Assembly: GCA_018381425.1 (NCBI GenBank)
Contig: JAGZRY010000027.1
Span: 1-14,002, forward strand
DNA: 14,002 bases
Reading direction: 5' to 3'
DNA from: Haemophilus parainfluenzae
GTDB taxonomy: Bacteria > Pseudomonadota > Gammaproteobacteria > Enterobacterales > Pasteurellaceae
Part shown: positions 1-13,325 of the stretch, in pieces
How the letters are laid out: every line of letters begins with the position of its first letter
Numbering within the stretch: position 1 is the stretch's first letter
Program-made: the position numbers and the translations under genes
Notes under the pieces: generated by a model
The model's database searches: none
The model's input: the letters and a program-made list of their open reading frames with translations, nothing else
Told to the model about the DNA's origin: nothing

Positions 1-89
1 CCTCTTTAGCAAAGAGGGGTAGGGGAGATTTACTCGCTTCGCTCGCACTTCGTGCTGTTGCTAAAGCAACGTTCAAACGCAAGCGTTTG
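1..89. repeat. cluster of intergenic stem-loops
   Basis: Three perfect inverted repeats and one shorter one are packed into 89 bases. CCTCTTT (1-7) pairs with AAAGAGG (11-17). GCAC (45-48) pairs with GTGC (52-55) across TTC. GTTGCT (57-62) pairs with AGCAAC (65-70). CAAACGC (74-80) pairs with GCGTTTG (83-89). No coding potential is apparent. It may be a Haemophilus intergenic dyad element or a transcript-processing or attenuation structure. The upstream gene lies outside the window, so I cannot tell whether this is its 3' region. Confidence 0.55.
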
Positions 90-120
90 TGGCAGAAGTG
101 AAAACAGAGAAATATAAAAG

Positions 121-687
121 ATGATTAAGAAACCATATTCAATAATTTTTATTTGCGTATTGTTAATAATAGGTTGTACGAATAGTAATTCCGTTGTTCA
201 AAAACAAATAACACATATACGTTTTTTTGATAATTCTATTCATGTTCAGATAAATGAAAAACTGTATCATTTAAAGAGCAAAGATAAGAAAACAATACAA
301 CAATTTAAAGAATTTTATGATAGTTACCATTATAAAGTATCTAAACAAGCTTTAAACCTGCAAATACTAACGCAAAGTTCTAATGAGCTTATATACTCAC
401 TTTTTATTGATAAAAATCTATTAAGTGATGATGACTTAATCAAATTAAAAAAAGTATATCAAGCTGAAGCTTATGAAAAACAATATATAAAAGTAACATT
501 CTTGGCTGATGCTGAGACTTTTTATGGTTTAAATAATTTAACTGATGAATATAAATTAGATACCCCACTACCAATAGTAGTAACTGACAAAAGACCTTTT
601 TTTGAAACTGGTAACGGTCAATTGTTATTTATTTTAACAATGCCAGTTTGGGTACCATTTGCATTAGTATTTGGTTTAAAGCCTTAA
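121..687 (+). CDS. predicted lipoprotein, unknown function
   Basis: This 188-aa protein begins with a short basic n-region (MIKK), a hydrophobic stretch, and a lipobox-like LIIGC with Cys at residue 19, so it is probably a lipid-anchored envelope protein processed by signal peptidase II. The middle is polar and Lys/Tyr-rich with no motif I recognise. The last 25 residues are hydrophobic and Pro/Phe-rich, possibly a second membrane contact. The start codon follows an A-rich stretch with no good Shine-Dalgarno sequence. It ends 42 bases before glyS on the same strand. It is much more AT-rich than glyS, which suggests acquired or fast-evolving DNA. The function is unknown. Confidence 0.7.
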   Translation: MIKKPYSIIFICVLLIIGCTNSNSVVQKQITHIRFFDNSIHVQINEKLYHLKSKDKKTIQQFKEFYDSYHYKVSKQALNLQILTQSSNELIYSLFIDKNLLSDDDLIKLKKVYQAEAYEKQYIKVTFLADAETFYGLNNLTDEYKLDTPLPIVVTDKRPFFETGNGQLLFILTMPVWVPFALVFGLKP

Positions 688-729
688 TATTTATAATGAT
701 ATAAATTATGTTTACATAGAGACTCCAAA

Positions 730-2796
730 ATGACAACCCAAAACTTCCTAGTAGAAATCGGCACGGAAGAGCTGCCACCAAAAGCTCTCAAAACATTAGC
801 GACCTCTTTTGCGGATAACGTTGAAGCGGAGTTAAACCAAGCGGGTTTATCATTCGACAAGATCGAATGGTTTGCGGCACCGCGTCGTTTGGCGGTGAAA
901 GTGTTGAACTTAGCCACACAGCAACCAAGCAAAGAAATCGAAAAACGCGGACCTGCAGTGTCTGCAGCCTTTGATGCGGAAGGTAAACCAACAAAAGCAG
1001 CTGAAGGCTGGGCGCGCGGTTGTGGTATTACCGTTGAGCAAGCAGAACGCATTTCAACTGATAAAGGTGAATGGTTAGTTCATCGTGCAAAAATTGAGGG
1101 GCAGCCAACCAAAAACTTACTTAACGACATTGTGGCAAATGCGTTGGCGAAATTGCCAATTCCAAAACCAATGCGTTGGGCTGACAAAACCGTGCAGTTT
1201 ATCCGTCCGGTTCACACCGTAACTATGTTATTGGGTGATGAGTTAATTGAAGGTGAAATTTTAGGTGTAGCAAGCGCACGCACCATCCGCGGTCACCGTT
1301 TCTTAGGTGAAAAAGAATTTGAAATTCAACATGCCGACCAATATCCGCAATTATTGCGTGAAAAAGGATCTGTGGTAGCCGATTTCAACGAGCGTAAAGC
1401 AGAAATTTTGGCAAAATCTCAAGCAAAAGCGACCGCACTTGGCGGCGTGGCTGACATTGAAGAAAGCTTGCTTGAAGAAGTGACTTCGTTGGTTGAATAT
1501 CCAAACGTCTTAGCGGCGAAATTCGAAGAACGTTTCTTAGCGGTGCCTGCGGAAGCCTTGGTTTACACTATGAAAGGCGACCAAAAATATTTCCCAATTT
1601 ATGATAAAGACGGCAAATTATTACCGCACTTTATTTTTGTCTCGAACATCAACCCAGAAGATCCAACTGCGATTATCGAAGGGAACGAAAAAGTGGTTCG
1701 CCCACGTTTAACCGATGCGGAATTCTTCTTCAAAACTGACTTAAAACAAAAACTGGTGGATCGTTTACCGCGTTTAGAAACCGTGTTGTTCCAACAACAA
1801 CTCGGTACATTGAAAGATAAAACTGACCGTATTGAACAACTTGCAGGTGAAATTGCAAAACAAATCGGTGCAGATGAAGTGAAAGCAAAACGTGCAGGTT
1901 TACTGTCAAAATGTGACTTGATGACCAACATGGTATTTGAATTCACCGATACGCAAGGTGTAATGGGTATGCATTACGCTCGTCATGATGGTGAAGATGA
2001 AGAAGTGGCAGCGGCGTTAAACGAGCAATATATGCCACGCTTTGCGGGTGATGAATTACCTAAATCTTTGGTGGCAAGTGCAGTCGCTTTAGCGGATAAA
2101 TTTGACACCTTAACGGGGATATTCGGTATCGGACAAGCGCCGAAAGGCAGTGCCGACCCATTTGCATTACGCCGCGCAGCGTTAGGCGCATTACGTATTA
2201 TCGTTGAGAAAAACTTGCCGTTGGATTTGGAAGATTTAGTGAAAAAATCCACCGCACTTTTCGGTGATAAACTCACTAATAAAAATGTGGTTGCTGATGT
2301 CGTGGATTTTATGCTAGGTCGTTTCCGTGCATGGTATCAAGATGAAGGCATTGCAGTGGATGTGATTCAAGCGGTATTGGCGCGTCGTCCAACCCGTCCG
2401 GCTGATTTTGATGCGCGCGTGCGTGCGGTATCACACTTCCGTACTTTAGATTCAGCAGAAGCGTTAGCAGCTGCAAATAAACGTGTCAGCAACATCTTAA
2501 CGAAAGCGGATGCTGCAATTGGCGAGATTAATTTGACCGATTGCGTAGAACCAGCAGAAAAAGCCCTTGCTGAAGCGGTACTTGCATTACGCAGCGAAGT
2601 ACAACCACTTATCGCACAAGGCGATTACACCGCAGTATTAGATAAATTAGCGAACTTACGCGCACCGGTAGATAGTTTCTTTGATAACGTAATGGTAAAT
2701 GCTGAAGATCCAGCATTACGCCAAAACCGCTTAGCGATTTTAAACACGTTGCAAGGCTTATTCTTACAAGTGGCGGATATTTCGGTATTGCAATAA
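730..2796 (+). CDS. glyS: glycyl-tRNA synthetase beta subunit
   Basis: GlyS is the beta chain of the bacterial alpha2-beta2 glycyl-tRNA synthetase. It works in the cytoplasm with GlyQ to charge tRNA-Gly, and the beta chain supplies most of the tRNA contacts. The 688-aa length fits the family. The N-terminus [16 protein letters not shown] is the GlyS signature, and the C-terminal third containing [16 protein letters not shown] is the anticodon-binding region. The protein reads almost identically to the H. influenzae one as I remember it. Start: ATG at 730, preceded by a weak GAGAC. glyQ is not in the window and is presumably upstream. A strong terminator follows. Three uptake 9-mers lie in the gene. 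Confidence 0.97.
1432..1440 (-). repeat. DNA uptake signal sequence core
   Basis: ACCGCACTT, the complement of the Haemophilus uptake core AAGTGCGGT, lies inside glyS. Confidence 0.85.
1623..1631 (-). repeat. DNA uptake signal sequence core
   Basis: ACCGCACTT inside glyS, followed by the T-rich tract typical of the extended uptake signal. Confidence 0.85.
2251..2259 (-). repeat. DNA uptake signal sequence core
   Basis: ACCGCACTT inside glyS, again followed by a T-rich stretch. Confidence 0.85.
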
Positions 2797-2804
2797 TAGA
2801 TCTA

Positions 2805-2839
2805 AAAAGGATGGTCAATTTTCCAACGACCATCCTTTT
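2805..2839 (+). terminator. glyS rho-independent terminator
   Basis: A perfect 12-bp stem pairs AAAAGGATGGTC (2805-2816) with GACCATCCTTTT (2828-2839) around an 11-base loop. It starts 8 bases after the glyS stop codon and its 3' arm ends in four T. The A/T ends are symmetrical, so it could also stop transcription from the other strand. Confidence 0.9.
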
Positions 2840-2844
2840 GTATA

Positions 2845-2873
2845 TAGACTTCAACGGATTATTTCTCTATAAT
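2845..2873 (+). promoter_or_regulatory. promoter of the tRNA gene
   Basis: A consensus -10 box TATAAT (2868-2873) lies 17 bp after TAGACT (2845-2850), which matches TTGACA at four of six positions. The predicted start near 2880 is a few bases before the mature tRNA 5' end. Confidence 0.7.
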
Positions 2874-2874
2874 C

Positions 2875-2883
2875 ACCGCACTT
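2875..2883 (-). repeat. DNA uptake signal sequence core
   Basis: ACCGCACTT sits between the tRNA -10 box and the first base of the mature tRNA. Confidence 0.85.
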
Positions 2884-2884
2884 T

Positions 2885-2961
2885 CCCCCCTTAGCTCAGT
2901 CGGTTAGAGCAGGCGACTCATAATCGCTTGGTCACTGGTTCAAGTCCGGTAGGGGGGACCA
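2885..2961 (+). tRNA. tRNA with CAU anticodon, probably tRNA-Ile2
   Basis: A complete cloverleaf is visible. The acceptor stem CCCCCCT (2885-2891) pairs with AGGGGGG (2951-2957), followed by discriminator A and encoded CCA. The D-arm is GCTC/GAGC. The anticodon stem GGCGA/TCGCT encloses the loop CTCATAA with anticodon CAT. The T-arm is ACTGG/CCGGT around TTCAAGT. The body closely resembles E. coli ileX, so it is more likely the minor tRNA-Ile, whose C34 becomes lysidine through TilS to read AUA, than a tRNA-Met. Automated annotation may label it tRNA-Met. Its 3' end is the integration site of the downstream element. Confidence 0.93.
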
Positions 2962-2963
2962 TT
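2955..2963 (+). other. probable attL core
   Basis: GGGACCATT spans the last bases of the tRNA and recurs at 12494-12502. The wider match is GGTAGGG followed by GGGACCATT here against GGTAGGGACCATT at the right end, a difference of three G. Confidence 0.6.
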
Positions 2964-3073
2964 CGACTTGTCAAATAACGTCTTTTCTGTCAAAAAACAT
3001 CATAAAAACAGCATTTTAGAATCAATCTTATTGTTGTTTTTGTCTTTTATTGTTTGTCATTGTTCGTTTTTAT

Positions 3074-3122
3074 TGTTCCCTTAAATGTTCCCTCTTTATG
3101 AAGGAACAAAAACGAGGGAACA
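3074..3122. promoter_or_regulatory. left integrase arm-type sites
   Basis: TGTTCCC occurs at 3074-3080 and 3086-3092, 12 bp apart, followed by inverted GGAACA (3103-3108) and GGGAACA (3116-3122). The same direct pair with the same 12-bp spacing occurs at the right end. The sites also overlap the region where the integrase promoter should lie, so they could be autoregulatory. Confidence 0.65.
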
Positions 3123-3159
3123 GAAGAACGGTAAATTTTTATTTATTAGGGTTTGAACA

Positions 3160-4386
3160 ATGGCTAGAGACTTTTCAAAAAAATTCACTGATTCTTATAT
3201 TCATGGAATTAAACCAACCGATAAAGAGCAACTATTTTCTGATAGGGATAATCTGTATTTATTGGTTAAACCAACTGGAGCCAAAATATGGCGATTCATT
3301 TACACTCACCCAACAACCAAAAAACGCATTAAAAAATCTTTTGGAAACTATCCATCAATTCCACTTGCTTTCGCTAGGGATAAGGCTCGTATATGGTGCG
3401 GGCTATTGGCACAAGGTATAGATCCTGCTGAAGAAGAACGTATGCAGCAAGAGGAGAAAGAGAAGAAATCTGTGACCTTTAAGAGCTTGCTATGCTATGG
3501 CGTGATAAACGATTAAAGAAGGGGGAGTTAAAAGAAAATAGTATTGAGAAAGCTTATAGAAGAGTAGAGCTTTATTTGTTTGATAGATTTAATTTTTCTA
3601 GATTGTTAGCTAAAAATATTAATTTGAGCATCTTTTGATGATGCTCTACTTCCCATAGAGGGAACAGATACGTGCGATAAGTTATGCATTGCAATAAAAC
3701 AAATATTTGATAATGCGATTGATGAAGGCGTGTTAGAAAATAATCCTTTTACAAGATTATCCAAAAGATTTAAAAAGCCAATTACTAAGAATTTTCCATC
3801 AATACCGCCTAAGGAATTACCACGGGTATTTGCTAAACTTAATTTATCTAATGCAAAGATAGCGACAAAATGCCTTATTGAATTTCAGTTGCTCACTATC
3901 TTGAGGGCCAGTGAAGCAGTGAAGATAGAGTGGAGTGATATAAATTGGGAAGAAAAGGCTCTACATATTCCCGCTGAACGAATGAAAGGCGGTAAGCGTC
4001 CGCATAGTGTACCTTTATCTAGTCAGGCATTGCGAATTCTAGAGTGTATGCGTGAAATAAATGGCCATCGCAGATTTGTTTTTACTAGTTATATTGCACC
4101 ATGGAATAAACCAATGAATAGCCAAACCGTTAACAAGACTTTAAGAGATCTTGGATTTACTGGCGAATTAGTTGGGCATGGTTTTCGTGGTATCGCCAGC
4201 ACTTATTTGCATGAATTAGATTGTTTTTCTTATGAAGCGGTTGAGTGGTGTTTATCTCATGAAACGCGTAATGAAGTTCGTAAAGCCTACGATAAATCGA
4301 AGAAATGGCGTTCTAGACAAGAGATTATGCAGACGTGGGGAGATTATGCTGAGCAGTGCAAGGTTCAAGCCTTGCGGATGAGTTAG
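3160..4386 (+). pseudogene. P4-type tyrosine integrase, two frameshifts
   Basis: The protein would insert and excise the element at the tRNA. The N-terminal 110 residues are the DUF4102-type arm-binding domain (LYLLVKPTGAKIWRF, KKSFGNYPSIPLAFAR). The C-terminal part has the catalytic set: Arg near 3904 (LRASEA), Lys in RMKGGKR, HGFR near 4177, His in CLSHE and Tyr near 4288. The first frame ends at TAA 3514-3516. Homologous sequence (LWRDKRLKKGELKEN) continues in another frame from about 3492 to 3635, then returns to the first frame after an extra T in 3633-3636 (FDDALLPIEG). The net shift is zero, and the repaired length of 408 aa is normal for the family. It is probably inactive unless these are assembly errors. 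RBS: TTAGGG before the ATG. Confidence 0.9.
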
Positions 4387-4393
4387 CATTATG

Positions 4394-4414
4394 GGGCGGA
4401 TATTCCGCCCTTTA
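4394..4414. terminator. terminator between convergent integrase and small exported protein gene
   Basis: GGGCGGA (4394-4400) pairs perfectly with TCCGCCC (4404-4410) around a 3-base loop and is followed by TTTATT. It starts 8 bases after the integrase stop codon and directly abuts the stop of the convergent gene, so it can serve both. Confidence 0.75.
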
Positions 4415-4681
4415 TTCTTCCTCGCATTCATCTTCATCTAAACAATCTTCATCATAATAAGGCTCAATATATCCATCTTTTACCGCTTTCGCCTTTTGTT
4501 GTTCCTCTTCCTTGTCTTTGTAATGTTTAACTACTCGATAGACAACATAAGCGGCAACGGCTTTTTTAATTATTCCGCTAGATTTCTTTTTCTGTGCTGC
4601 AATAGCTGGATTCACAGAACTTGTAGCTATACCTAGCACAAAGAAATAAGTTAAAGCCTGTTTAATCATTGATGAAGCCAT
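4412..4681 (-). CDS. small exported protein with acidic Cys-containing tail
   Basis: This 89-aa protein has a signal peptide: a short n-region, hydrophobic LTYFFVLGIA, then NPAIAAQ with likely cleavage after Ala28 or Ala29. The mature part of about 60 residues starts with KKK, continues as a basic amphipathic or hydrophobic helix (GIIKKAVAAYVVYRVVKHY), then a charged KDKEEEQQKAK segment, and ends in a very acidic tail with two Cys. I do not recognise a family. The start could also be Met5; neither ATG has a good ribosome site. An extended -10 promoter lies just upstream. Function is unknown; periplasmic or membrane-associated cargo is the safest reading. Confidence 0.65.
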   Translation of the reverse strand: MASSMIKQALTYFFVLGIATSSVNPAIAAQKKKSSGIIKKAVAAYVVYRVVKHYKDKEEEQQKAKAVKDGYIEPYYDEDCLDEDECEEE

Positions 4682-4706
4682 GCTTTTACTGGTTTTCTAT
4701 GAGTTT

Positions 4707-4715
4707 ATTATATCA
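4707..4715 (-). promoter_or_regulatory. extended -10 promoter of the small exported protein gene
   Basis: On the minus strand this reads TGATATAAT, a consensus -10 with the TGn extension. TTGTAG lies 15 bp upstream as a poor -35. The predicted RNA starts only about 20 bases before the ATG. Confidence 0.6.
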
Positions 4716-4835
4716 AAATCGCAAGCCCTACAATTCCTAAAATCCTATTTTCCCCTGGATTTTTCCGATTATTTTCGCTTATGAAACATCGCACCCCTCG
4801 CACGCCCGCACGCTTTTACTTGATACCTCATTTTT

Positions 4836-4944
4836 AACGCAAGCCTCGGCAAGCTCTTACCCTTGGTTAATACTGGCTTTTCTTGATATTTTTAAACCGC
4901 AATCATTAACGCAAATCAACGCAAACTAACGCAAAATTTGCGTT
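4836..4944. repeat. AACGCAA iterons, possible origin or operator
   Basis: AACGCAAA occurs at 4908-4915 and 4918-4925, with a third copy at 4928-4935. The exact 10-bp period puts them on one DNA face. An inverted copy TTTGCGTT follows at 4937-4944, forming a perfect dyad with the third copy. An outlying AACGCAA lies at 4836-4842. Such helically phased arrays are typical of replication-initiator or repressor binding sites. Confidence 0.7.
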
Positions 4945-5046
4945 AAAAATTCTGCTTTTTAGTGATTTTTGACAAATGAAAATCGGACAGTTTAGAAAGC
5001 GTTACACAAAGTCCGGTTAAATATGCCACTATATTTCTCCTAATTA

Positions 5047-5108
5047 TGTGAATCCATTCCTCACAACCCCCGCCGAATGCATACCAAACGCATATTTTCT
5101 ATTATAAA
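5047..5108 (+). promoter_or_regulatory. possible activator-dependent promoter of the capsid operon
   Basis: A dyad TGTG (5047-5050) N11 CACA (5062-5065) is centred about 59 bp before the start expected from a TATAAA box at 5103-5108, with no recognisable -35. P2-type late promoters bound by Ogr/Delta have a TGT-N12-ACA dyad near -55. Here the spacing is one base longer, so this is suggestive only. Confidence 0.3.
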
Positions 5109-5167
5109 AATCGTTCCACAGAGTACCGCACGGACATCACAATAACTACATTTTATAGGTAAGAAAA

Positions 5168-5386
5168 ATGCAAGAAACCCAAACGAAAGAACGTTTTTTA
5201 CGGATTGATGCCGTAATTGAATTAACAGGGCTTGCGCGTTCTACTATTTACGAAAAAACACGATTAAACCAATTTCCACAGCCCGTAGATTTGGGCGGGA
5301 ATAAGAAAGCATGGCTAGAAAGTGAAGTAAATAAATGGATGCAAGAGCGCATTGAACAACGAAACCAAAAAACAGCAGGAAAATAA
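5168..5386 (+). CDS. AlpA-family regulator, first copy
   Basis: This 72-aa protein fits the AlpA/MerR-like winged helix-turn-helix family. FLRIDAVIELTGLARSTIYE (residues 10-29) is the helix-turn-helix, FPQPVDLGGNKKAW is the family wing, and ESEVNKWMQERI is the last helix. Members bind DNA near integrase genes and act as activators or excisionase-like factors. It is the first gene of the capsid operon, and its 3' end carries the AGGA ribosome site of the next gene, whose ATG follows the stop by one base. RBS: AGGTAAG before the ATG. It differs clearly from the second AlpA-like protein at 8980. Confidence 0.88.
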   Translation: MQETQTKERFLRIDAVIELTGLARSTIYEKTRLNQFPQPVDLGGNKKAWLESEVNKWMQERIEQRNQKTAGK

Positions 5387-5387
5387 A

Positions 5388-6074
5388 ATGAAACTACAAA
5401 ACCCACAAATTCAAGAAAAAATGACCGCACTTTTAGAGCAGTTTAATAATCAGAAAGAGATGCTAATCATGATTGATCGTGAATTAGCCGCCTTACACAT
5501 GCAACAAGCTAAAAACACCGCCACGATTGCCGCAGTTAAATCTGAGTATGAACAAGAAGCCGCAGCAATTAAGGTTAAATTTGAGCAAAGCCATGAGTTA
5601 GCACTTGATGACTATACTTTAATTCAAAGAGCCAAAGCCGAATTAAAAGCTCGCCTTGATTTCTTCACTGCAACTGGAGAAGAGTTGGAAGAAAAAATCT
5701 ATCAAAAATCTGAGCAAGTTTTTACAGCTAAAGCGCAGTTATTGACAACGCGAAAACATTTAATTTTTAGTTATGGTGAAGCGTTAGCAAATGAATTTAT
5801 TCAGCAACATATCGAACAAATCACCTTGTTTAGAAGCTTAATCGTGAATGGTATTGAATATGATCCAATAACAGAAAAAGATGGCAAAGATGTATTTAAT
5901 GAAATACTCATTAAGAAATTATCTGATTTTGATAATTCATTACCCGATGAATTTAAATTGCCAACGCTTAATCTACAACAAGATTGGAAACCTAAAACCC
6001 CAACCCAAAAACATGTTGATAGCTTTAAACCTCAATCAGATAAAGGGTTTAAACGTTTATTAAATAATTTCTAG
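5388..6074 (+). CDS. coiled-coil protein upstream of capsid, possible scaffold or Sid-like factor
   Basis: This 228-aa protein is almost wholly helical. Residues 1-130 are Glu/Lys/Gln/Ala-rich with long predicted coiled coils, and the C-terminus is a polar, Pro-containing tail (WKPKTPTQKHVDSFKPQ). It directly precedes the capsid gene, the place the scaffold gene O has before N in P2. In length and helical make-up it also recalls P4 Sid (about 244 aa), which cages P2 procapsids to make them small. I cannot align it, so both are hypotheses. I chose ATG 5388 because AGGA lies just before it; an in-frame ATG at 5352 would overlap the AlpA-like gene. One uptake 9-mer lies near the start. Confidence 0.6.
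   Translation: MKLQNPQIQEKMTALLEQFNNQKEMLIMIDRELAALHMQQAKNTATIAAVKSEYEQEAAAIKVKFEQSHELALDDYTLIQRAKAELKARLDFFTATGEELEEKIYQKSEQVFTAKAQLLTTRKHLIFSYGEALANEFIQQHIEQITLFRSLIVNGIEYDPITEKDGKDVFNEILIKKLSDFDNSLPDEFKLPTLNLQQDWKPKTPTQKHVDSFKPQSDKGFKRLLNNF
5424..5432 (-). repeat. DNA uptake signal sequence core
   Basis: ACCGCACTT followed by TT, within the coiled-coil gene of the element. Confidence 0.85.
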
Positions 6075-6084
6075 GATAATAAAT

Positions 6085-7026
6085 ATGGAACGTATTACAA
6101 GTCAAAAATTCGCAGAATATAAAAATAAGTTAGGCGGTAACAATGCCGGTGAAAGTGAATATATGCACGATTTTGCCAAGATTGAATCTATTCTCAATGA
6201 GGGAATTCAAAATAATGCATTTTTACGCATGATTGACGTTAAATTCACCCCGCTTACCTTGAATCAAGCGCATGAATTATCCTTACCAGTGGTTAGTCGA
6301 ACCAATACAGATAATTCTGCTCGAGTGCCTAAAAATTATGTTCAAGCTGGCGTAGATTTTAATTGTCGACAAGTCAATTTTGATACCAAAATTTCTTATC
6401 GAGATTTAGATAAGTTTTCCGACGTAGATTTTGAAAAATCAATTAATGACAGCATGATCAGCGAATTCATGCAAAATATTATTATGATTGGTTTTAATGG
6501 GGAACGTTGGGCGGATGATAGTGATCCTGTACAAAACCCATTAGGGCAAGATGTGGCGAAGGGCTGGACGGCTCAACTTAAAGAAAAAGGGCAGATTATC
6601 AATGCTGCAACAGAACAAGGAGCAAGTATTAATCAATTAATTGCTAAAGCGCTTGATAAGTTGCCTGCTAAGCTTCGACATAGTGGTGAATTAATCGCTA
6701 TTTGTGGGGATAATTTGCTAGGCGGTGACTTTGTTAATGTGGCTTATTCTGATTTACAGAGCGCCAAAACAAACAACGTTATCATTTCTCAAAAGCTTAT
6801 CGGGGGATTAAAGGCAATCAATGTAAGCTATTTCCCAAAAAATGCGATTTTAGTTACTGCACTTTCTAATCTAGCCATTTATTTTAAAAAGGATAGTTCA
6901 CGTCTTTTCTTCCAGGATAAACCGCGTGAAAATGCACTTGAAGTATATTTTTCTACAAATCTTGATTTTCTACTAGGAAATCATTTACATGCGGTTTTAA
7001 TAGATGGCATTAGTACAGAGGCGTAA
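6085..7026 (+). CDS. P2 gpN-type major capsid protein
   Basis: The 313-aa protein matches the P2-family major capsid protein, an HK97-fold shell subunit, along its length. Conserved blocks include GFNGERWADDSDPVQNP followed by QDVAKGW (P2 has GFNG, SNPMLQDVAVGW), VIISQKLIGGL (P2 VIISQKRIGNL), YFPKNAILVTALSNLAIYF (P2 YFPADAMLITKLENLSIYY) and the ENALEVYFSTNLDFL region. It is about 45 residues shorter than P2 gpN (357 aa), with losses in the middle and C-terminus. The N-terminal arm is present. No protease, portal or terminase gene is nearby. It is 10 bases after the coiled-coil gene and 3 before the next, so it is in one operon. It appears intact. Confidence 0.9.
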   Translation: MERITSQKFAEYKNKLGGNNAGESEYMHDFAKIESILNEGIQNNAFLRMIDVKFTPLTLNQAHELSLPVVSRTNTDNSARVPKNYVQAGVDFNCRQVNFDTKISYRDLDKFSDVDFEKSINDSMISEFMQNIIMIGFNGERWADDSDPVQNPLGQDVAKGWTAQLKEKGQIINAATEQGASINQLIAKALDKLPAKLRHSGELIAICGDNLLGGDFVNVAYSDLQSAKTNNVIISQKLIGGLKAINVSYFPKNAILVTALSNLAIYFKKDSSRLFFQDKPRENALEVYFSTNLDFLLGNHLHAVLIDGISTEA

Positions 7027-7029
7027 TCT

Positions 7030-7272
7030 ATGACAGAGATAAAACAAGGCTCTTTTACCTTGCTTGAGTGCGCCGAAAGAATGTTAGAGGCAAGCCGAAC
7101 AATGACGATCTTTTGTATTGAAGAAGCAATAAAACAAGGGCATATTTCAGAAAATGATAAAATCGAACTCATGCTAGCCTTTGCGGATTTAATGGAAAAG
7201 GAAGCGCAAACATTCAAACAAAGCTTTAAGCGAACTCAAAGCGGCCAAAAAAGCGAGATCTTTAACTTTTAA
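7030..7272 (+). CDS. small helical protein of the capsid operon, unknown
   Basis: This 80-aa protein looks all-helical: FTLLECAERMLEASRTMTIF, then EEAIKQGHISENDKIELMLAFADLMEKEAQTF, with a basic Ser/Gln-rich tail. It starts 3 bases after the capsid stop codon, with GAGG inside the end of the capsid gene as ribosome site, so it is translationally linked. In P2 the gene after N encodes the small terminase, but I see no terminase features here. It could be a capsid-associated or assembly factor by position only. A terminator follows. Confidence 0.65.
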   Translation: MTEIKQGSFTLLECAERMLEASRTMTIFCIEEAIKQGHISENDKIELMLAFADLMEKEAQTFKQSFKRTQSGQKSEIFNF

Positions 7273-7278
7273 TTAATC

Positions 7279-7300
7279 GCCCCGAAAGGGGCTTTATTTT
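7279..7300 (+). terminator. terminator of the capsid operon
   Basis: GCCCC (7279-7283), a GAAA tetraloop, GGGGC (7288-7292), then TTTATTTT. It begins 6 bases after the stop codon of the 80-aa gene. Confidence 0.85.
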
Positions 7301-7312
7301 TATATTAAAACC

Positions 7313-7340
7313 TTTTAAAAACTTTTAAAAGTGCTATTAT
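7313..7340 (+). promoter_or_regulatory. toxin-antitoxin promoter with double palindromic operator
   Basis: TTTTAAAA occurs at 7313-7320 and 7323-7330, exactly 10 bp apart, just before an extended -10 TGCTATTAT (7332-7340). The palindromes cover the -35 area, as expected for an operator bound by the antitoxin or the complex. Confidence 0.65.
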
Positions 7341-7377
7341 CATATCCAATGAAGATAAACCATACGGAGGAAAAAAT

Positions 7378-7632
7378 ATGGCAATTCACCAAATTTTGAC
7401 ACAACAAGCGGCAAGTATTACCGATCTAAAACGTGACCCGATGGGGATTGCGCATGCAAGCGAAGACGGCGCAGTAGCAATTTTAAATCGTAATCAGCCC
7501 GCTTTTTATTGTGTAACACCTGCCCTTTTTGAATATTTTCAAGAGTTAGCGGAAGATGCTGAATTAGGCAAAATTGCGCAAGAGCGTAAAGCGGATGGGG
7601 ATTTTGTTGCGGTAAATATTAATGACCTATAG
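7378..7632 (+). CDS. RelB/StbD-type antitoxin
   Basis: This 84-aa protein has the layout of Phd/YefM/RelB-like antitoxins: an N-terminal DNA-binding part (ASITDLKRDPMGIAHASEDGAVAILNRNQPAFYCVTPALFEYF) and an acidic, flexible C-terminal toxin-binding tail. It would neutralise the following toxin and repress its own promoter. A strong GGAGG (7366-7370) precedes the ATG. Its last 11 bases overlap the toxin start, typical of translational coupling. The pair has its own promoter and is flanked by terminators, so it is an independent module. It resembles stbD/stbE pairs as I remember them. Confidence 0.88.
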   Translation: MAIHQILTQQAASITDLKRDPMGIAHASEDGAVAILNRNQPAFYCVTPALFEYFQELAEDAELGKIAQERKADGDFVAVNINDL

Positions 7633-7912
7633 TTTAAAATTTCATGAAAAAGCACTTAAAGAATGGCAAAAACTGGGTGAGCCAATCAGAAATCAATTAA
7701 AAAAGAAGTTGATGGAACGCCTCGAAAATCCACACGTTCAAGCTGATAGATTAAGTGGATTTTCGACCGCACTTTATAAAATTAAGTTACGTTCATCAGG
7801 CTATCGTTTAGTTTATGAAGTTAATGATAATGAAGTAACGGTTTTTATATTATCTGTAGGGAAAAGAGATCGTTTACAAGCCTATGAAAACGCAAGAAAT
7901 AGAACGCATTAA
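7622..7912 (+). CDS. RelE/StbE-type mRNA-cleaving toxin
   Basis: This 96-aa basic protein is of the RelE/ParE fold. Typical segments are the N-terminal YSLKFHEKALKEWQKLG, the RLSG turn, and the core strand KIKLRSSGYRLVYEV (residues 53-67) with Arg57 and Arg62, followed by VGKRDR (79-84) near the C-terminal helix. RelE toxins cut mRNA in the ribosomal A site and stop translation. By overall sequence it is closer to the StbE/RelE branch than to ParE gyrase poisons, so mRNA cleavage is the favoured activity. The gene contains an uptake 9-mer that encodes residues 49-51. It is intact. Confidence 0.9.
   Translation: MTYSLKFHEKALKEWQKLGEPIRNQLKKKLMERLENPHVQADRLSGFSTALYKIKLRSSGYRLVYEVNDNEVTVFILSVGKRDRLQAYENARNRTH
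7766..7774 (-). repeat. DNA uptake signal sequence core
   Basis: ACCGCACTT followed by TATAAA, inside the toxin gene. Confidence 0.85.
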
Positions 7913-7922
7913 AATAATACAA

Positions 7923-7950
7923 AAAGCCCCTTGATGGGCTTTCTTTTTAT
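7923..7950 (+). terminator. terminator of the toxin-antitoxin operon
   Basis: AAAGCCC (7923-7929) pairs with GGGCTTT (7936-7942) around CTTGAT and is followed by CTTTTTAT. It begins 10 bases after the toxin stop codon. Confidence 0.88.
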
Positions 7951-7971
7951 TTTTTATTTAAGGATCAAGAA

Positions 7972-8838
7972 ATGGCAAAGAAACCAACATTACCACCTAG
8001 AAAATGGTATAGCTTGCAACAGGCAGCGGATAAATTGAGAAGAGAATTTGGCGAACCTGTAACAATAGATGACCTATTACATTATTCTCAAATAGGCCTT
8101 TTAGAATTATCTGTTTATATAGCAACAAGTAAAGAAACAATAAAAATAGGAAATAATATATTTTCAACTTATGAAAAAATAAATGGAAAGGATACTTACC
8201 CTAGAGAATTTTTAGAGTTTTATTTGATGGGGGAATATGAGAATAGTATTTCAATACCACATATTTTTTCAATGAAAAAAGGATCGGCAACGGTTTATCA
8301 AAATAAATTTGTAAAGACAATAATTGTAAATGATGACCCCAAATTAGATGAGCTGATTTACATTGATGGATTTATGAATTTATATGTAAGTTTAGGAAAT
8401 ACTAGTGAGGATATAGAAAATATAAAAGAAAATGGATTTAAATTAGGATTTCAGAATTATCTAATATCCCCTAATAATGAGATTGATGACGGTGCAGTTG
8501 TTATTTTTCATTTGACTGATCTAGCTAAAGAAGATGTTTTTATAACGTTGGATGATATTTATATTTTAGCTAGTGATTTAAATAATTTTCTTGAAGGTAA
8601 AGGAAGACAACAGCCAAATGAAATAATTGAAAGTCAGAAAAATAAGTCTCCTCGCCAAGAGGCTAATCAACTTGATTTTATCCGTGCTTTACTCAAAACC
8701 CACTACGGCACAGATGACCCAAACGAATGCCGCAAATTACTTGAAAGCGGAAAATTAGCGAAAGATTTTGCTAGAGCTGAAGTTGAGCAAAATATCACAC
8801 CAGAAACCCTTAGAAACTGGCTTAAAGCAGAAAAATAA
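7972..8838 (+). CDS. 288-aa AT-rich accessory protein, unknown function
   Basis: Three parts can be seen. Residues 1-45 (RKWYSLQQAADKLRREFGEP, then VTIDDLLHYSQIGLLELSV) resemble an N-terminal domain I associate with Pasteurellaceae prophage proteins, possibly a helix-turn-helix. Residues 45-215 are Asn/Ile/Glu-rich, very AT-rich and unlike any family I know. Residues 225-288 (DFIRALLKTHYGTDDP, KDFARAEVEQNITPETLRNWL) form a helical module with a putative helix-turn-helix end, again with normal composition. A good AAGGA ribosome site precedes the ATG. It is isolated between a terminator and the next operon's control region, a position where satellites often carry cargo. I found no obvious promoter of its own. 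Confidence 0.7.
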   Translation: MAKKPTLPPRKWYSLQQAADKLRREFGEPVTIDDLLHYSQIGLLELSVYIATSKETIKIGNNIFSTYEKINGKDTYPREFLEFYLMGEYENSISIPHIFSMKKGSATVYQNKFVKTIIVNDDPKLDELIYIDGFMNLYVSLGNTSEDIENIKENGFKLGFQNYLISPNNEIDDGAVVIFHLTDLAKEDVFITLDDIYILASDLNNFLEGKGRQQPNEIIESQKNKSPRQEANQLDFIRALLKTHYGTDDPNECRKLLESGKLAKDFARAEVEQNITPETLRNWLKAEK

Positions 8839-8849
8839 TCTTTTCAATA

Positions 8850-8962
8850 TTTGGAAATTTCCAAACTATTTTTGGAAATTTCCACCTTTCAAAATTCTCA
8901 CCCCATACCATACGCCCCGACAAACAAGACATTTCAAGACACATTATTTGACAATTTCCAAA
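8850..8962. promoter_or_regulatory. paired GGAAATTTCC palindromes ahead of the second operon
   Basis: The first site is a perfect 16-bp palindrome TTTGGAAATTTCCAAA (8850-8865). The second is a perfect 12-bp palindrome TGGAAATTTCCA (8873-8884). Their centres are 21 bp apart, two helical turns. A half site AATTTCCAAA (8953-8962) lies 90 bp further, directly after TTGACA (8948-8953). The arrangement looks like cooperative repressor or activator sites for the operon starting at 8980. I cannot assign a good -10 box. Confidence 0.7.
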
Positions 8963-8979
8963 ACTAAACAGGGGCAACT

Positions 8980-9198
8980 ATGGAAAAAAATACCTACGCT
9001 GAAGTGCGTTACTACTCAACTGCTACGATTTGCAAAATGCTTGATGTATCTCGTGCGTGGTTATGGGATCAGGTTAATGCTGGCCATTTTCCTAAACCGA
9101 TTAAATTTGGACGATTAGCGCGTTACAAGGCAGAAGATGTAGAGCGTTTTCTCGCAGACCAAGAGCAAGTAACAGAAATTAATTTAATGGGGGAATAA
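8980..9198 (+). CDS. AlpA-family regulator, second copy
   Basis: This 72-aa protein belongs to the AlpA family: YYSTATICKMLDVSRAWLWD (residues 11-30) is the helix-turn-helix, HFPKPIKFGRLARYKAEDV is the conserved wing and following helix, and VERFLADQEQ ends it. It is a better match to the family than the copy at 5168. AGGGG lies before the ATG. It leads the second rightward operon, and its stop codon directly abuts the zinc-finger gene. By position it could act on the palindromes just upstream and serve as excisionase or master activator of the element. Confidence 0.92.
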   Translation: MEKNTYAEVRYYSTATICKMLDVSRAWLWDQVNAGHFPKPIKFGRLARYKAEDVERFLADQEQVTEINLMGE

Positions 9199-9504
9199 AT
9201 GGCAGGCTTAACAATTTATTGTCCTTTTTGCGGACAACGTGCAGGCATTCATACCACTGAAAAACTTTCATTACTTGTTACTAAAGCTCGCATTTATTGC
9301 CCTTCATGCGGGCAATTAAACGCCGATTTTGTCGGGCAGATTAGCAACATTAAAAGAGCGGTTTATGTAGATTGTCCTGAAGCGAACAACTGGGAGAAAA
9401 CCGAAAAAGAAACTTTACAGGAAAAGGGCATTAAGCCGATGACGAATGAAGAACGATTAGCGCAGCTAAAAGGGCAAGATAAATCGCAAGGCAAGTTATT
9501 TTAA
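9199..9504 (+). CDS. Ogr/Delta-like zinc-finger activator
   Basis: This 101-aa protein has C8-X2-C11-X22-C34-X2-C37. The Ogr/Delta family of P2 and P4 late activators has C-X2-C-X22-C-X4-C, so the central spacing is the same and the last knuckle is two residues shorter. It is followed by a short hydrophobic region ending in KRAVYVD, comparable to the Ogr region after the finger. The C-terminal half is polar and charged and may be an extension. Ogr/Delta proteins bind dyads near -55 and recruit RNA polymerase to late promoters; P4 Delta does this on helper genes. It could also be another zinc-ribbon protein. The start is fused to the AlpA-like stop codon. Confidence 0.72.
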   Translation: MAGLTIYCPFCGQRAGIHTTEKLSLLVTKARIYCPSCGQLNADFVGQISNIKRAVYVDCPEANNWEKTEKETLQEKGIKPMTNEERLAQLKGQDKSQGKLF

Positions 9505-9532
9505 ACCGTATGCTGAATTGAGGGCAAAAAAA

Positions 9533-9555
9533 AGCCCAGTCTTCAACACTGGGCT
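9533..9555 (-). terminator. strong hairpin oriented as a leftward terminator
   Basis: AGCCCAGT (9533-9540) pairs perfectly with ACTGGGCT (9548-9555) around a 7-base loop. On the plus strand an A-run precedes it and no T-run follows, so the poly-U signal is on the minus strand. No minus-strand gene is visible to its right. It may end an antisense RNA or be a structured leader element. Confidence 0.6.
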
Positions 9556-9615
9556 ATCCATAAACCAACCTAAGATATTGGATAAACAAAGGAATTAATT
9601 TATCTAAGGAATGAT

Positions 9616-10197
9616 ATGAATTATACAATTAAATCAATGCACTACAAAGAAAAGCGCGAAAAAATAAACAAATTTACAATTTCACTATTGACAGATAAAA
9701 CGAGATTAAACTATATTAATCCCGCACTCGCAAAATCGAGAGCCGGCCGTGACAAGCTGAATTTACAAATGGCGAACAGTAGCACGCCAGTTTTAACTCG
9801 TGCTTTTTTTGTTCGTAGCGTTTACGCACCTATCCAAAATAATCTATCTTTTGATAGACTATTCTCAATGGTAGCGCGTGATGGGCAACCCTTAGCGGTT
9901 GGCTGCTTTCCATTTGTAGCAGTTTGTCACCCCGTTACGTGCTACCGCCCGACCGTGACAAGTCTAGCGGTAGTTCCTAAAAGTTTACAAATGGACACCG
10001 CAGAAATGATCTACAAATTTCTATGCGTTAATCGCACACACCCGCACTTTAATTTGTGCATTCAAACTATTCACGCCAACACCGAAGAAAGAGCAAGATT
10101 AAGCCTTAACGCTGATTTTCGCCACCTCGTCACCGTTGCAAAAATCAACCCGAAATTTAACCGCACTTTAGCGATGAAAGCGGGGATTTATGTGTAA
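9616..10197 (+). CDS. Icd/Ash-like host-interference protein
   Basis: This 193-aa protein resembles the Icd-like/Ash family of P4 and related elements. The diagnostic block is FSMVARDGQPLAVG (residues 83-96), followed by a Cys/Pro-rich stretch and a C-terminal domain starting IYKFLCVNRTHPHFN with ARLSLNADFRHLVTVAKINP. P4 Icd is reported to interfere with host cell division; Ash is linked to the satellite's early region. The role here is inferred from similarity remembered, not aligned. AAGGA lies 5 bases before the ATG; a closer ATG at 9611 runs straight into a stop. Its end overlaps a 54-aa ORF by 8 bases. One uptake 9-mer lies near the 3' end. Confidence 0.75.
   Translation: MNYTIKSMHYKEKREKINKFTISLLTDKTRLNYINPALAKSRAGRDKLNLQMANSSTPVLTRAFFVRSVYAPIQNNLSFDRLFSMVARDGQPLAVGCFPFVAVCHPVTCYRPTVTSLAVVPKSLQMDTAEMIYKFLCVNRTHPHFNLCIQTIHANTEERARLSLNADFRHLVTVAKINPKFNRTLAMKAGIYV
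10160..10168 (-). repeat. DNA uptake signal sequence core
   Basis: ACCGCACTT near the 3' end of the Icd/Ash-like gene. Confidence 0.85.
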
Positions 10198-10354
10198 TGT
10201 TTTCTTTCTCTCAGCATTCGATCACTTTCACCAAAAATACTATTCAAGCAGGTTTTTCTTTTACGAAGAAGCCGAGAGGGTAGCGCGCCATTTAATGGAA
10301 AATGACCCTAACGTATGGGCCGTAAAAATTCAAAAAATGGGAGGTGAAAAATGA
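10190..10354 (+). CDS. 54-aa protein overlapping both neighbours
   Basis: The ORF begins with MCNVFFLSAFDHFHQKYYSS and ends VWAVKIQKMGGEK. Its ATG lies within the last 8 bases of the Icd/Ash-like gene, and its stop TGA overlaps the next ATG as ATGA. These overlaps on both sides, plus the GGAGG of the next gene falling inside it, argue that it is translated. The protein is aromatic-rich at the N-terminus (FF, YY, FFFY) with a helical EEAERVARHLMEND middle. No family is recognised. Confidence 0.6.
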   Translation: MCNVFFLSAFDHFHQKYYSSRFFFYEEAERVARHLMENDPNVWAVKIQKMGGEK

Positions 10355-10677
10355 GCAGAGAATTAATAACAACGACAGATGGGATCTTAATTTGTCGAGA
10401 TTCTGAAAAAGATAAAAAGGCTAATCCTTCTATTTTATTGATTAATGATTTAGCCGAACATTTCCTTATTCCTAAGTATGATGAACACAAAAATGTAACA
10501 GATGCATTGGCTTTTTATAGTGTTTGCTATTTAGCTTTAATGAAAGAATTAAAAGGCACGGAAGTTTTAAAGTGGATTAATAGAAATTTATGCGATGTGT
10601 ATTCGCATAATGGCGGTTTGCCACTTGAACAAACACTTGAAAAATATGCAGAAACAAAATCACAAAAAGGAGAATAG
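10351..10677 (+). CDS. 108-aa protein, unknown function
   Basis: A soluble, mixed protein with no signal peptide or membrane segment. It opens MSRELITTTDGILICRDSEK and has a helical middle (NVTDALAFYSVCYLALMKEL) and a polar, Lys-rich end. I do not recognise the family. GGAGG lies about 8 bases before the ATG, which overlaps the previous stop codon, and the next gene begins 2 bases after its stop, so it belongs to a tight polycistron with the regulators. Confidence 0.7.
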   Translation: MSRELITTTDGILICRDSEKDKKANPSILLINDLAEHFLIPKYDEHKNVTDALAFYSVCYLALMKELKGTEVLKWINRNLCDVYSHNGGLPLEQTLEKYAETKSQKGE

Positions 10678-10679
10678 AA

Positions 10680-11051
10680 ATGAGTAGAGCGAAATTAGAA
10701 GCATTAATTGATGGCGCAATGCAACAAATTAAAACAGCCTTATTGAATGAGTTTGATGAAGTGATGAACTCCATGAAAAAAGATGAATTAGAAAAGTTAA
10801 AACAGAAGGAACAAGATGTGCTTCAACGACAAATTCAAGAGACAAAGATTGGTGCAGCTATTGAACAGTCAAGAATGCCAAGCGGTGATAGATACTTTTC
10901 AATCAAAGAAATTGCAGAAAGTGGCTTATGTTCAGAACCAACTATTAAACGTTGGATAGCAAGCGGCAAATTAAAATCTTATAAGTTTGGCAGAAGTCGG
11001 AAAGTTGTTGAAAGCGATTTGAACGCCTATTTAGCTATTTGCAAACAATAA
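10680..11051 (+). CDS. coiled-coil plus excisionase-type helix-turn-helix protein
   Basis: The 123-aa protein has two parts. Residues 1-60 are a Lys/Glu/Gln-rich coiled coil (KKDELEKLKQKEQDVLQRQI), probably for dimerisation. Residues 72-123 are a MerR/excisionase-type domain: YFSIKEIAESGLCSEPTIKRW is the helix-turn-helix, IASGKLKSYKFGRSRKV the wing, and VVESDLNAYL the final helix. Such proteins bind element DNA as recombination directionality factors or regulators. AAGGAGAA precedes the ATG. It sits in the same operon as the second AlpA-like gene, so it may be the actual excisionase. Confidence 0.82.
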   Translation: MSRAKLEALIDGAMQQIKTALLNEFDEVMNSMKKDELEKLKQKEQDVLQRQIQETKIGAAIEQSRMPSGDRYFSIKEIAESGLCSEPTIKRWIASGKLKSYKFGRSRKVVESDLNAYLAICKQ

Positions 11052-11092
11052 GATATGACCGAGAAAACCAAGATTAAAACAAAGGATAGAAC

Positions 11093-11386
11093 ATGATGCA
11101 ACAACAAGAACAACCACTAACCGTAGAGAGCCTAAAGCGTATTCTTGCGAACCATGACGAACGCCTAAGTCGTTTGGAGAATGATAAGAAAGCTTATGGA
11201 TTAGATGAAATCTGGACAGCGAAAGACGTGGCTCAATACGCAAAGATTTCTTATGGCTATTTTATGCAAACCCTTTCACTTGATCCCAATTTTCCCGCAA
11301 GCGTCGGCACGCTGAAGAAACGCGCTCCGAAAAAATACCGCGCGGCAGAGGTTATCGAGTTTTTTAAGAATCGGAATAAGGCATAG
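11093..11386 (+). CDS. AlpA/excisionase-like helix-turn-helix protein
   Basis: This 97-aa protein has a helical N-terminus (VESLKRILANHDERLSRLEND), likely a coiled coil, then IWTAKDVAQYAKISYGYFMQ as a helix-turn-helix and PNFPASV with KKYRAAEVIEFFKN as the AlpA-like wing and last helix. It is the fourth small DNA-binding protein of this type in the element. Start: two adjacent ATG codons at 11093 and 11096; AAGGA at 11081-11085 serves either. A 41-base gap separates it from the previous gene, and 9 bases from the next. Confidence 0.78.
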   Translation: MMQQQEQPLTVESLKRILANHDERLSRLENDKKAYGLDEIWTAKDVAQYAKISYGYFMQTLSLDPNFPASVGTLKKRAPKKYRAAEVIEFFKNRNKA

Positions 11387-11395
11387 GGGAAAAAG

Positions 11396-11800
11396 ATGAG
11401 TTATAAAAAACACCCACCAAAAGCACCGCACTTTGACGAACAAGGGCGCGTAGCCTTTGAGCATATTCACGCATTAATTGGCAATAAAGTGTGGAATGCT
11501 TGGGGATTTGGTAAAGATAAAGGCAATGGCCTTGAATGGGGTTTATTGCGCGATAAATTAGGGCTTGAGCGTGATTATAAGCCAATAATTTTAGATACGG
11601 AGAAACTGGCAAAGGCTGGCGATTATCAGATTTTAAAAGATGATGTGCACGCCGTGACGTTTTACCGTTTTGGCAACGTGACAAGCGACCAAGAAAACGC
11701 TCTTTTTCGCACATCTTGGAATAAATCACCTACTTTCCAAAAGTATAAAAAAGATACATTTTACTTTTATTTTTTTCTGCTTGCCTTAGAATCAAATTAA
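11396..11800 (+). CDS. 134-aa protein, possible stump of a replication gene
   Basis: The first 105 residues look like a conserved domain (AFEHIHALIGNKVWNAWGFG, LEWGLLRDKLGLERDYKPII, DYQILKDDVHAVTFYRFGNV). The last 30 (SPTFQKYKKDTFYFYFFLLA) are low-complexity and aromatic, and their DNA turns AT-rich from about 11735. That break suggests a reading frame cut by a deletion and ending in unrelated DNA. Satellites of this kind usually have a primase-helicase gene here, so I infer that this is its N-terminal remnant; the domain itself is not one I can name with certainty. GGGGAAAAAG precedes the ATG. One uptake 9-mer lies near the start. Confidence 0.5.
   Translation: MSYKKHPPKAPHFDEQGRVAFEHIHALIGNKVWNAWGFGKDKGNGLEWGLLRDKLGLERDYKPIILDTEKLAKAGDYQILKDDVHAVTFYRFGNVTSDQENALFRTSWNKSPTFQKYKKDTFYFYFFLLALESN
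11425..11433 (-). repeat. DNA uptake signal sequence core
   Basis: ACCGCACTT followed by TGAC, near the start of the 134-aa gene. Confidence 0.85.
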
Positions 11801-11813
11801 ACAATAACCATGG

Positions 11814-12293
11814 ATGAAAGAAATGATTGCCTTGATCCTATTTCTAATTGCTGCACCAATTTATTTACTGATAGCAGGGCTTTTTATTGGTGGCACATAT
11901 TTAATCAACATTCTGCCAGCATTTATCGTAATCTATCTATTGTTGGTATTTTTAGCTGTAATGCTGACTCCATTCAAACCGTGGTTTAATCGGAACCGTG
12001 CCAAAATAAATTCTTCAGGAAAATTGATTCTTTTAGTTTTATTTGGGCCACTAATAGCTGTTCTAACGATATCTATCATTGTATTACCTTTCGTTATGAT
12101 TTACGCAATAGCTGATAACCCATTTTTATGGTATGCAGTGATTTTATTATTTGTTTTCGTCTATGGTTTCATCATAAGAAATTCAATAAAACGAAAGGAA
12201 GAAGAAAGGGTTTGGGAAAAAACTCGTGAACGCGCAGCATTACATAAGGAAAGATATTTTTACGGTGAACAAAAATACACTAAAGAAGATTAA
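11814..12293 (+). CDS. four-helix membrane protein, unknown function
   Basis: This 159-aa protein has four hydrophobic segments at about residues 4-24, 28-50, 70-98 and 104-122, then a charged cytoplasmic-looking tail of about 37 residues (IKRKEEERVWEKTRERAALH and onward). The short positively charged loop after the second segment (FKPWFNRNRAK) suits the inner membrane with a cytosolic tail. No family is recognised. It is the last gene before the right end, a usual place for cargo such as superinfection-exclusion proteins, but that is inference. A TAGAAT at 11787-11792 could be its -10. The start is uncertain: ATG 11814 has no ribosome site and ATG 11823 is an alternative. Confidence 0.65.
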   Translation: MKEMIALILFLIAAPIYLLIAGLFIGGTYLINILPAFIVIYLLLVFLAVMLTPFKPWFNRNRAKINSSGKLILLVLFGPLIAVLTISIIVLPFVMIYAIADNPFLWYAVILLFVFVYGFIIRNSIKRKEEERVWEKTRERAALHKERYFYGEQKYTKED

Positions 12294-12404
12294 GCTATAA
12301 AAATGAACTCATAAAACGAAATTAAACGTAAAGATTGATAAATTTTCTAACTTGCCAAATAATTCCCAAATAATGACATCAAAAAAGACCATTTTTTGTA
12401 GTGA

Positions 12405-12423
12405 TGTTCCCTGTTTTGTTCCC
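12405..12423. promoter_or_regulatory. right integrase arm-type sites
   Basis: TGTTCCC occurs at 12405-12411 and 12417-12423, 12 bp apart, matching the orientation and spacing of the pair at 3074-3092. It lies about 70 bp inside the right junction. Confidence 0.65.
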
Positions 12424-12493
12424 TTTTTAGATACTAATACTCTTATTAATTCCAGGTATGACAAGGGATGAGTTCAAAAAATGGAAGTAGGTA

Positions 12494-12502
12494 GGGACCA
12501 TT
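12494..12502 (+). other. probable attR core
   Basis: GGGACCATT matches 2955-2963 at the tRNA 3' end, within the longer GGTAGGGACCATT. TTCAA about 20 bases upstream recalls the T-loop. The copy is imperfect compared with the tRNA (three G fewer), so the exact crossover is uncertain. Confidence 0.5.
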
Positions 12503-12508
12503 TATTGA

Positions 12509-12531
12509 GATCGCATTAGGCGGTCTTTTTT
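12509..12531 (+). terminator. probable original tRNA terminator displaced by the element
   Basis: GATCGC (12509-12514) pairs with GCGGTC (12520-12525), with one G-T pair, around ATTAG, followed by six T. It lies 6 bases after the attR copy of the tRNA 3' end, where a tRNA terminator would be expected before integration. It could also limit readthrough from the element into the convergent kdkA. Confidence 0.65.
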
Positions 12532-12552
12532 ATTACCTTTTTCTAATGCGTT

Positions 12553-13278: not shown

Positions 13279-13296
13279 TTTAGTTGAACCGAATAA

Positions 13297-13325
13297 TAGA
13301 AAATGCTCTCATTCTACTTTAAAAT
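13297..13325 (+). promoter_or_regulatory. promoter of opsX
   Basis: TAGAAA (13297-13302) and TAAAAT (13320-13325) are 17 bp apart and lie 30 bp before the opsX ATG. On the other strand TATTAT (13293-13298) could be the -10 of kdkA, so the two promoters would overlap back to back. Confidence 0.4.

Follow-up and report, generated by a model that had tools for sequence, protein, structure and literature searches.

We have analysed a 14,002-nucleotide stretch of Haemophilus parainfluenzae DNA (assembly GCA_018381425.1, contig JAGZRY010000027.1, positions 1 to 14,002 of the forward strand; hereafter the window) that carries a putative phage satellite with a P2-type major capsid gene. The island spans from about 2961, beside a tRNA-Met gene on its left, to about 12490, beside a Kdo-kinase gene on its right; the right border was set by eye, and no direct repeats flanking the island were found. 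Its main features are given below, with matches as expectation values (E).

2885..2961, + strand: tRNA-Met (cat), its 3' end presumed to hold the attachment site
3160..4386, + strand: integrase, split into an arm-binding part (3160-3516; PF13356, E 4e-20) and a catalytic part (3730-4386; PF00589, E 2.8e-22)
4702..4940, + strand: cos-like region (packaging signal) with a GC-rich core (4797-4811) and AACGCAAA repeats (4908-4935); best E 2.8e-7 against the post-gpQ stretch of P2-like prophages
5168..5386, + strand: AlpA-like regulator (PF05930, E 3.4e-18)
5388..6074, + strand: Sid-like helical partner of 228 amino acids (aa), a putative size-setting scaffold
6085..7026, + strand: P2 gpN-type major capsid protein, 313 aa (Pfam, PHROG and PDB profile matches; capsid tree)
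9199..9504, + strand: Ogr/Delta-like zinc finger, putative late activator (PF04606, 21.0 bits, under the cut-off of 26.3)
9616..10197, + strand: Ash family protein (PF10554, E 1.7e-13)
11396..11800, + strand: truncated start of a primase/helicase, a 134-aa open reading frame (ORF)

A second helix-turn-helix protein is also encoded within the island. This copy of the satellite is decayed, because the PF13356 and PF00589 parts of the integrase lie in separate frames, so that the gene is broken, and because the primase/helicase, whole in relatives (about 730 aa), retains only its start. Compared with L032, a relative, the window is without about 2.3 kb, comprising the remaining primase gene and the stretch after it. 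Despite this decay, the cos-like region, the partner gene and the capsid gene are all present, with both genes open.

The capsid ORF begins 10 bases from the partner ORF. Its product matched PF05125 (Phage_cap_P2; E 6.2e-52, 177.1 bits against a cut-off of 27), the PHROG 70 major head protein (E 5.9e-55) and the solved P2 gpN 7jw1_A (E 2.8e-33), the last in a profile comparison with gpN proposed by a preliminary description of the window. Among the matches listed in phages, identity was at most 33%, and the capsid query confirmed no relative in a genome-contig collection.

Relatives were searched for in 140 genomes of one bacterial family, taken to be Pasteurellaceae; the named protein matches listed came from members of that family such as Aggregatibacter, Haemophilus, Rodentibacter, Bibersteinia and Mannheimia. 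In 57 of the 140 genomes the capsid query found a match (E <= 1e-5), and the surroundings of all 70 capsid places (54 loci plus 16 of the 19 in a second set) were scanned. By reading of the gene surroundings, a lone P2-type capsid marks satellites in 16 genomes, in one of them on a truncated contig, and a lone HP1-type capsid does so in 11; as the two types share one genome, the total is 26/140. Since the HP1-type satellites were found with the P2-type query, the count of 11 is a lower bound. The other capsid places belonged to prophages, P2-like or HP1-like, that have additional head genes, and to three satellite remnants: L078 and L079 each keep a capsid piece directly beside an integrase piece, and in L085 a short capsid piece alone remains.

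In a tree of 68 capsids, built without the fragments L038, L050, L078 and L079, the P2-type satellite capsids (window and 15 others) formed one clade with a support of 100/100, and the 11 HP1-type satellite capsids formed another (100/99). With midpoint rooting, each satellite clade was drawn among the phage capsids of its own type, in an inner order that is unsure because long branches meet, as the tool warned. The nearest homologues of the window capsid were found in satellites, not prophages; the preliminary description had reasoned that homologues confined to full P2-like prophages would make the element a prophage remnant. The capsid gene is under purifying selection, with a ratio of nonsynonymous to synonymous substitution rates (dN/dS) of 0.11-0.17 among close relatives; five of the six window pairs were saturated.

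P4 Sid is a scaffold that makes P2 heads small, and it binds the P2 capsid at the sir loop via the Sid C-terminus. With a median of 314 aa, the P2-type satellite capsids fall short of P2-like phage capsids (347.5 aa), and the largest length deficit in any 42-residue span, 11.8 residues, includes P2 residues 181-222. The sir loop comprises residues 183-224 (PMC7552001); the capsid is thus most shortened at the loop that a Sid-like C-terminus would meet. This stretch had 24-29 residues in P2-type satellites vs. 36-44 in phages, with no overlap. At the sir sites of the P2-type satellites, M184 was replaced in 15/16, Y207 was replaced in 10/16 and L221 fell in a gap in 16/16, counts that depend on the alignment. 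M184 and Y207 were kept in P2 and the three prophages listed, and D206 varied in those too. No sir-loop shortening was seen in HP1-type satellites (35-36 vs. 36-37 residues). Of the N-terminal helix of gpN, positions F9 and Y12 are retained in the window capsid.

The partner ORF was listed from a TTG at 5352; from the ATG at 5388 it runs open to 6074. The preliminary description had called its product a coiled-coil partner, in agreement with the prediction of a protein that is almost all helix, and had suggested looking for the pair in other Pasteurellaceae elements. Partner and capsid genes adjoined each other in 15/15 strong matches among the 140 genomes. A related protein was encoded upstream of the capsid in 10/11 HP1-type satellites, the contig of the eleventh ending too soon, and a profile comparison with the HP1-type partner alignment, which held no P2-type rows, gave 94%. 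The dN/dS of the partner was 0.09-0.18 without the window and 0.18-0.30 for window pairs.

For two separately predicted partner models, Sid had the highest TM-score among the 50 matches listed (0.55/0.54 and 0.58/0.57). As modelled, the full-length fold of the partner appears most like that of P4 Sid; the likeness covers the full length, but came with no significant Foldseek E-value and a tied Z score. Comparison of the partner profiles with 56 Sid sequences (hhalign) gave E 0.14-0.44, i.e. no sequence kinship; the size and decoration proteins Sid/Psu, by which P4-like satellites are recognised, were not found here by sequence. Comparison of single Sid and gpO sequences with the partner profile gave nothing of use. 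PHROG scans with the two partner families returned coiled-coil noise, with Psu/Sid in 1 of 10 and in none of the listed families of 46. The best match of the partner profile among PDB sequences was a collagen adhesin (E 0.0017), and the partner models matched nothing in a viral structure library at E <= 0.001. Searches for the partner in phages and viral contigs, and for the element DNA in phages, gave no useful match. Homology of the partner to gpO, gpM, gpQ or gpL was rejected, there being no profile match.

The partner C-terminus is conserved, and it is also the part that differs between P2-type and HP1-type partners. A C-terminal motif, [T/S]PxQ[K/R/H], was present in 16/46 partners, 27/52 Sid sequences and 1/818 other ORFs of at least 200 aa. 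The motif was picked after viewing an alignment and its stricter form occurs in only 5/46 partners; as a link between partner and Sid it is only suggestive.

In P2, cos lies just past the end of gpQ. The post-gpQ stretch from 30 P2-like prophages was used as query, with P2 vs. P4 cos as the positive control, against 14 of the 17 P2-type elements, window included (without L034, L038 and L077). It matched 14/14 of these satellites. Their best matches, with E between 1.5e-4 and 8e-27, all lay on the same strand, between integrase and AlpA, and a few weaker matches lay elsewhere. A GC-rich core and ACGCA repeats are common to satellites and phages in the alignment. The HP1 cos region was matched in 8/9 of the HP1-type satellites taken (9 of 11, without L083 and L107), with E 3e-25 to 5e-4 and, in six cases, across the junction. 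When the tests were crossed, P2-type satellites gave one match to HP1 cos, and HP1-type satellites gave six weak matches to the P2-type stretch, one of which (L112) was at that element's own cos place. Shuffled control queries gave one match and 13/150 random prophage segments matched; among the five random-segment matches listed, all but one (L064 against L041) overlap the cos stretch. In both satellite lineages the type of cos goes with the type of capsid, because P2-type cos was found in 14/14 P2-type and HP1-type cos in 8/9 HP1-type elements.

The gene order int-cos-AlpA-partner-capsid-...-Ash-...-primase was kept across genomes. The elements have an AlpA-type regulator and a primase (whole in relatives only), with genes mostly in one direction, and PF04606 was detected at E <= 0.01 in 16/17 family members as an Ogr/Delta-like protein. 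A tRNA or tmRNA gene lay beside the integrase in 14/14 P2-type relatives and in 6/7 of the HP1-type loci given. Short direct repeats, present in 7/10 elements, set the element length at 10.2-12.3 kb, near that of P4 (11.6 kb). Just 3' of the primase, in a stretch missing from the window, 10-mers, candidates for PICI iterons, were present at least three times in 7/9 relatives; these 10-mers are AT-rich, and the count is without a shuffle control. As judged from the sequence, the window belongs to a satellite family with the layout of Gram-negative phage-inducible chromosomal islands (PICIs).

We have compared 23 head, packaging, tail and replication proteins, drawn from P2 and HP1 only, with 14 + 9 satellite elements, and the capsid alone matched, even at E 0.01. 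Together with PF05125, PHROG 70 and 7jw1_A, this bears out the preliminary account of an intact gpN-like capsid in an element that lacks genes for portal, terminase, protease and tail; portal or terminase genes elsewhere in the element, which that account held would speak against its reading, were not found. Capsid-forming PICIs (cfPICIs) are equipped with a complete set of head and packaging genes, whereas here there is a capsid gene only, next to which the P2 and HP1 queries found no portal, terminase or head-completion gene of the satellite's own. A cfPICI was rejected, the capsid being the only match among the 23 queries. The cfPICIs make their own capsids (excerpt of PMC11389934).

We consider it probable, if far from certain, that these elements are PICI-type satellites of P2-like (Peduoviridae) phages with a helper-matched head cassette, consisting of cos, a Sid-like scaffold and an own capsid, for making small heads. 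An intact element would have about 10-12 kb, the window being a decayed member. The helper's late phase would turn the satellite on via AlpA and the Ogr/Delta-like protein, and whole relatives would replicate with their own primase, as the gene suggests. Satellite capsid protein, helper portal and gpO would assemble with the Sid-like protein into small shells, the Sid-like protein forming a cage that fixes their size; helper terminase would load satellite DNA at cos and helper tails would attach. The helper would supply the portal, the scaffold/protease gpO, the terminase, head completion and the tail. Small particles would form, the partner would act like Sid, and the satellite capsid would make much or all of the shell, which may be all-satellite or mixed with helper gpN. 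What computation shows behind this reading is the gene content with its synteny, the match at cos, the clades, the purifying selection and the predicted fold. A shell of the satellite's own size on the helper's portal, motor and tail had been suggested in the preliminary description, and is supported circumstantially by the matching cos, the Sid-like predicted fold, the altered sir loop and the purifying selection; the particles themselves we infer. A narrower version is possible, and we hold it only tentatively: the Sid-like cage would act on the satellite's own capsid, an all-satellite shell would be immune to sir mutations, by which a helper is known to escape through changes in its own capsid gene, the helper would give only portal, motor, protease and tail, and, in a single PICI chassis, the cassette would have been adapted to helpers on two or more occasions, for the P2-like and for the HP1-like type.

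Several observations weigh against this helper-matched cassette. Co-occurrence of P2-type satellites with full P2-like prophages was not significant (6/16 vs. 25/124, p = 0.12), nor was that of HP1-type satellites with full HP1-like prophages (2/11 vs. 6/129, p = 0.12). The window's copy is broken, one partner gene in 15 (that of G128) has an internal stop, and the L077 capsid (291 aa) is without a conserved stretch. Fold likeness among long-helix proteins is weak evidence by itself. Moreover, the capsid gene of an E. coli PICI was reported not to be required for transfer (excerpt of PMC10111431).

Other explanations differ in what the two genes would do. A hybrid shell seems unlikely, in which the satellite capsid would fill some positions of the helper gpN shell, e.g. 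the pentamers, and alone set the small size, with the partner as an accessory. Such a role is known from SaPIbov5 Ccm, a capsid homologue that is unable to make capsids by itself and takes the pentamer positions in small shells of T = 4 (excerpt of PMC8569155), and the F9 and Y12 positions kept in the window capsid could let it mix with helper gpN. However, Ccm acts without a partner, whereas here the partner is present in 15/15 strong matches and has a relative in the HP1-type lineage. That the partner is an internal scaffold replacing helper gpO, rather than an external Sid-like cage, is quite improbable. Its gene does lie just upstream of the capsid gene, the place of gpO in P2 and HP1, and its conserved C-terminus recalls CpmB and the scaffold that CpmB imitates (excerpt of PMC6893505); yet it has no profile similarity to the gpO of P2-like and HP1-like prophages, and in predicted fold over its full length, as in the layout of its helices, it comes closest to Sid.

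It also seems very unlikely that capsid and partner are solely a decoy that poisons helper head assembly and protects the host, no satellite particles being made. The capsid resembles that of the helper and would meet it during assembly, and known satellites interfere with helpers (excerpt of PMC6092414), but a matching-type cos in 14/14 elements tested points to packaging and relatives have whole integrase and primase genes. Poisoning of the helper is compatible with the helper-matched cassette and does not exclude it. The broken integrase and primase of the window would fit a capsid gene left over from a decayed P2-like prophage. We rejected such a remnant as extremely improbable, given the single satellite clade (100/100), the synteny kept with whole integrase and primase in relatives, the purifying selection and the lack of any other P2 or HP1 gene among the 23 queries.

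Small satellites with a capsid gene on its own, which the preliminary description had taken for new, have already been published: SaPIbov5, with Ccm, is one, and most reference Gram-negative PICIs have such a gene (excerpts of PMC8569155, PMC10111431 and PMC6092414). A capsid homologue is present in 21/29 reference Gram-negative PICIs, most Pasteurellaceae ones included (excerpt of PMC10111431), and such homologues were likewise reported in an excerpt of PMC6092414. What appears new is the matched cos with the Sid-like partner; in the open-licence PMC literature, preprints excluded, nothing was found on PICIs with a P2- or HP1-type capsid and either of these.

PmCI172 and EcCICFT073 resemble our elements in being small islands at tRNA sites, with integrase, AlpA-type regulator, primase, one gene direction and one capsid gene (excerpts of PMC6092414, PMC10111431 and PMC6893505). 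PmCI172 has a Mu-like helper and small heads, by a mechanism that the excerpted review calls undetermined, with no Sid recognised (PMC6893505); as described there, it is set apart from the elements with a P2- or HP1-type capsid, a matching cos and a Sid-like partner. SaPIbov5 is a cos-type satellite that likewise has a capsid homologue, Ccm, and lacks the other head genes; its description sets it apart, since helper and capsid are of another type and Ccm, which needs no partner, turns a prolate head isometric (excerpt of PMC8569155). P4 shares a P2-type helper and cos, a similar size, AlpA, an Ogr/Delta-like protein and the Sid-like predicted fold, but it lacks a capsid gene and relies on helper gpN, whereas here there are an own capsid, a DUF927-type primase and a partner without a Sid sequence match. 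The contrast with P4 drawn initially is weakened, as the partner resembles P4's own size determinant, Sid.

The satellites name a likely helper class and single out partner and capsid as the two genes of interest. A lone capsid with a helical partner offers a way to find such satellites, and cos type would predict the helper. A possible reason for an own capsid is that the helper could not escape by changing its own. The cassette also bears on the question of Gram-negative PICI capsid homologues, the PmCI172-type mechanism being called still undetermined in the review (excerpt of PMC6893505).

Further observations concern individual elements. In one genome a P2-type and an HP1-type satellite (L044 and L082, G102:C5) adjoin in the same direction. 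One HP1-type satellite (L084:10545-11210) also encodes a protein homologous to ORF34 of HP1, which belongs to the baseplate complex (PF25759, E 8e-72). A second tyrosine-recombinase-like protein lies near the primase at L035:4441-5445 (PF00589, E 3e-25) and shares a loose cluster with ORFs of L036 and L077. Three HP1-like prophages (L108, L109 and L110) have a portal and terminase 93-95% identical to those of HP1 and a capsid only 44-46% identical, and look as if their capsid gene had been exchanged.

Two more features of the window lie between the capsid and the Ogr/Delta-like protein:

7378-7912: ParE-type toxin gene and its upstream ORF
7972-8838: 288-aa ORF without any Pfam family

The ParE-type pair, 82-90% identical, occurs at the equivalent site in several P2-type satellites and after the primase in several HP1-type ones, and seems to move as a cassette. 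The 288-aa ORF recurs in most satellites, with an identity that varies widely.
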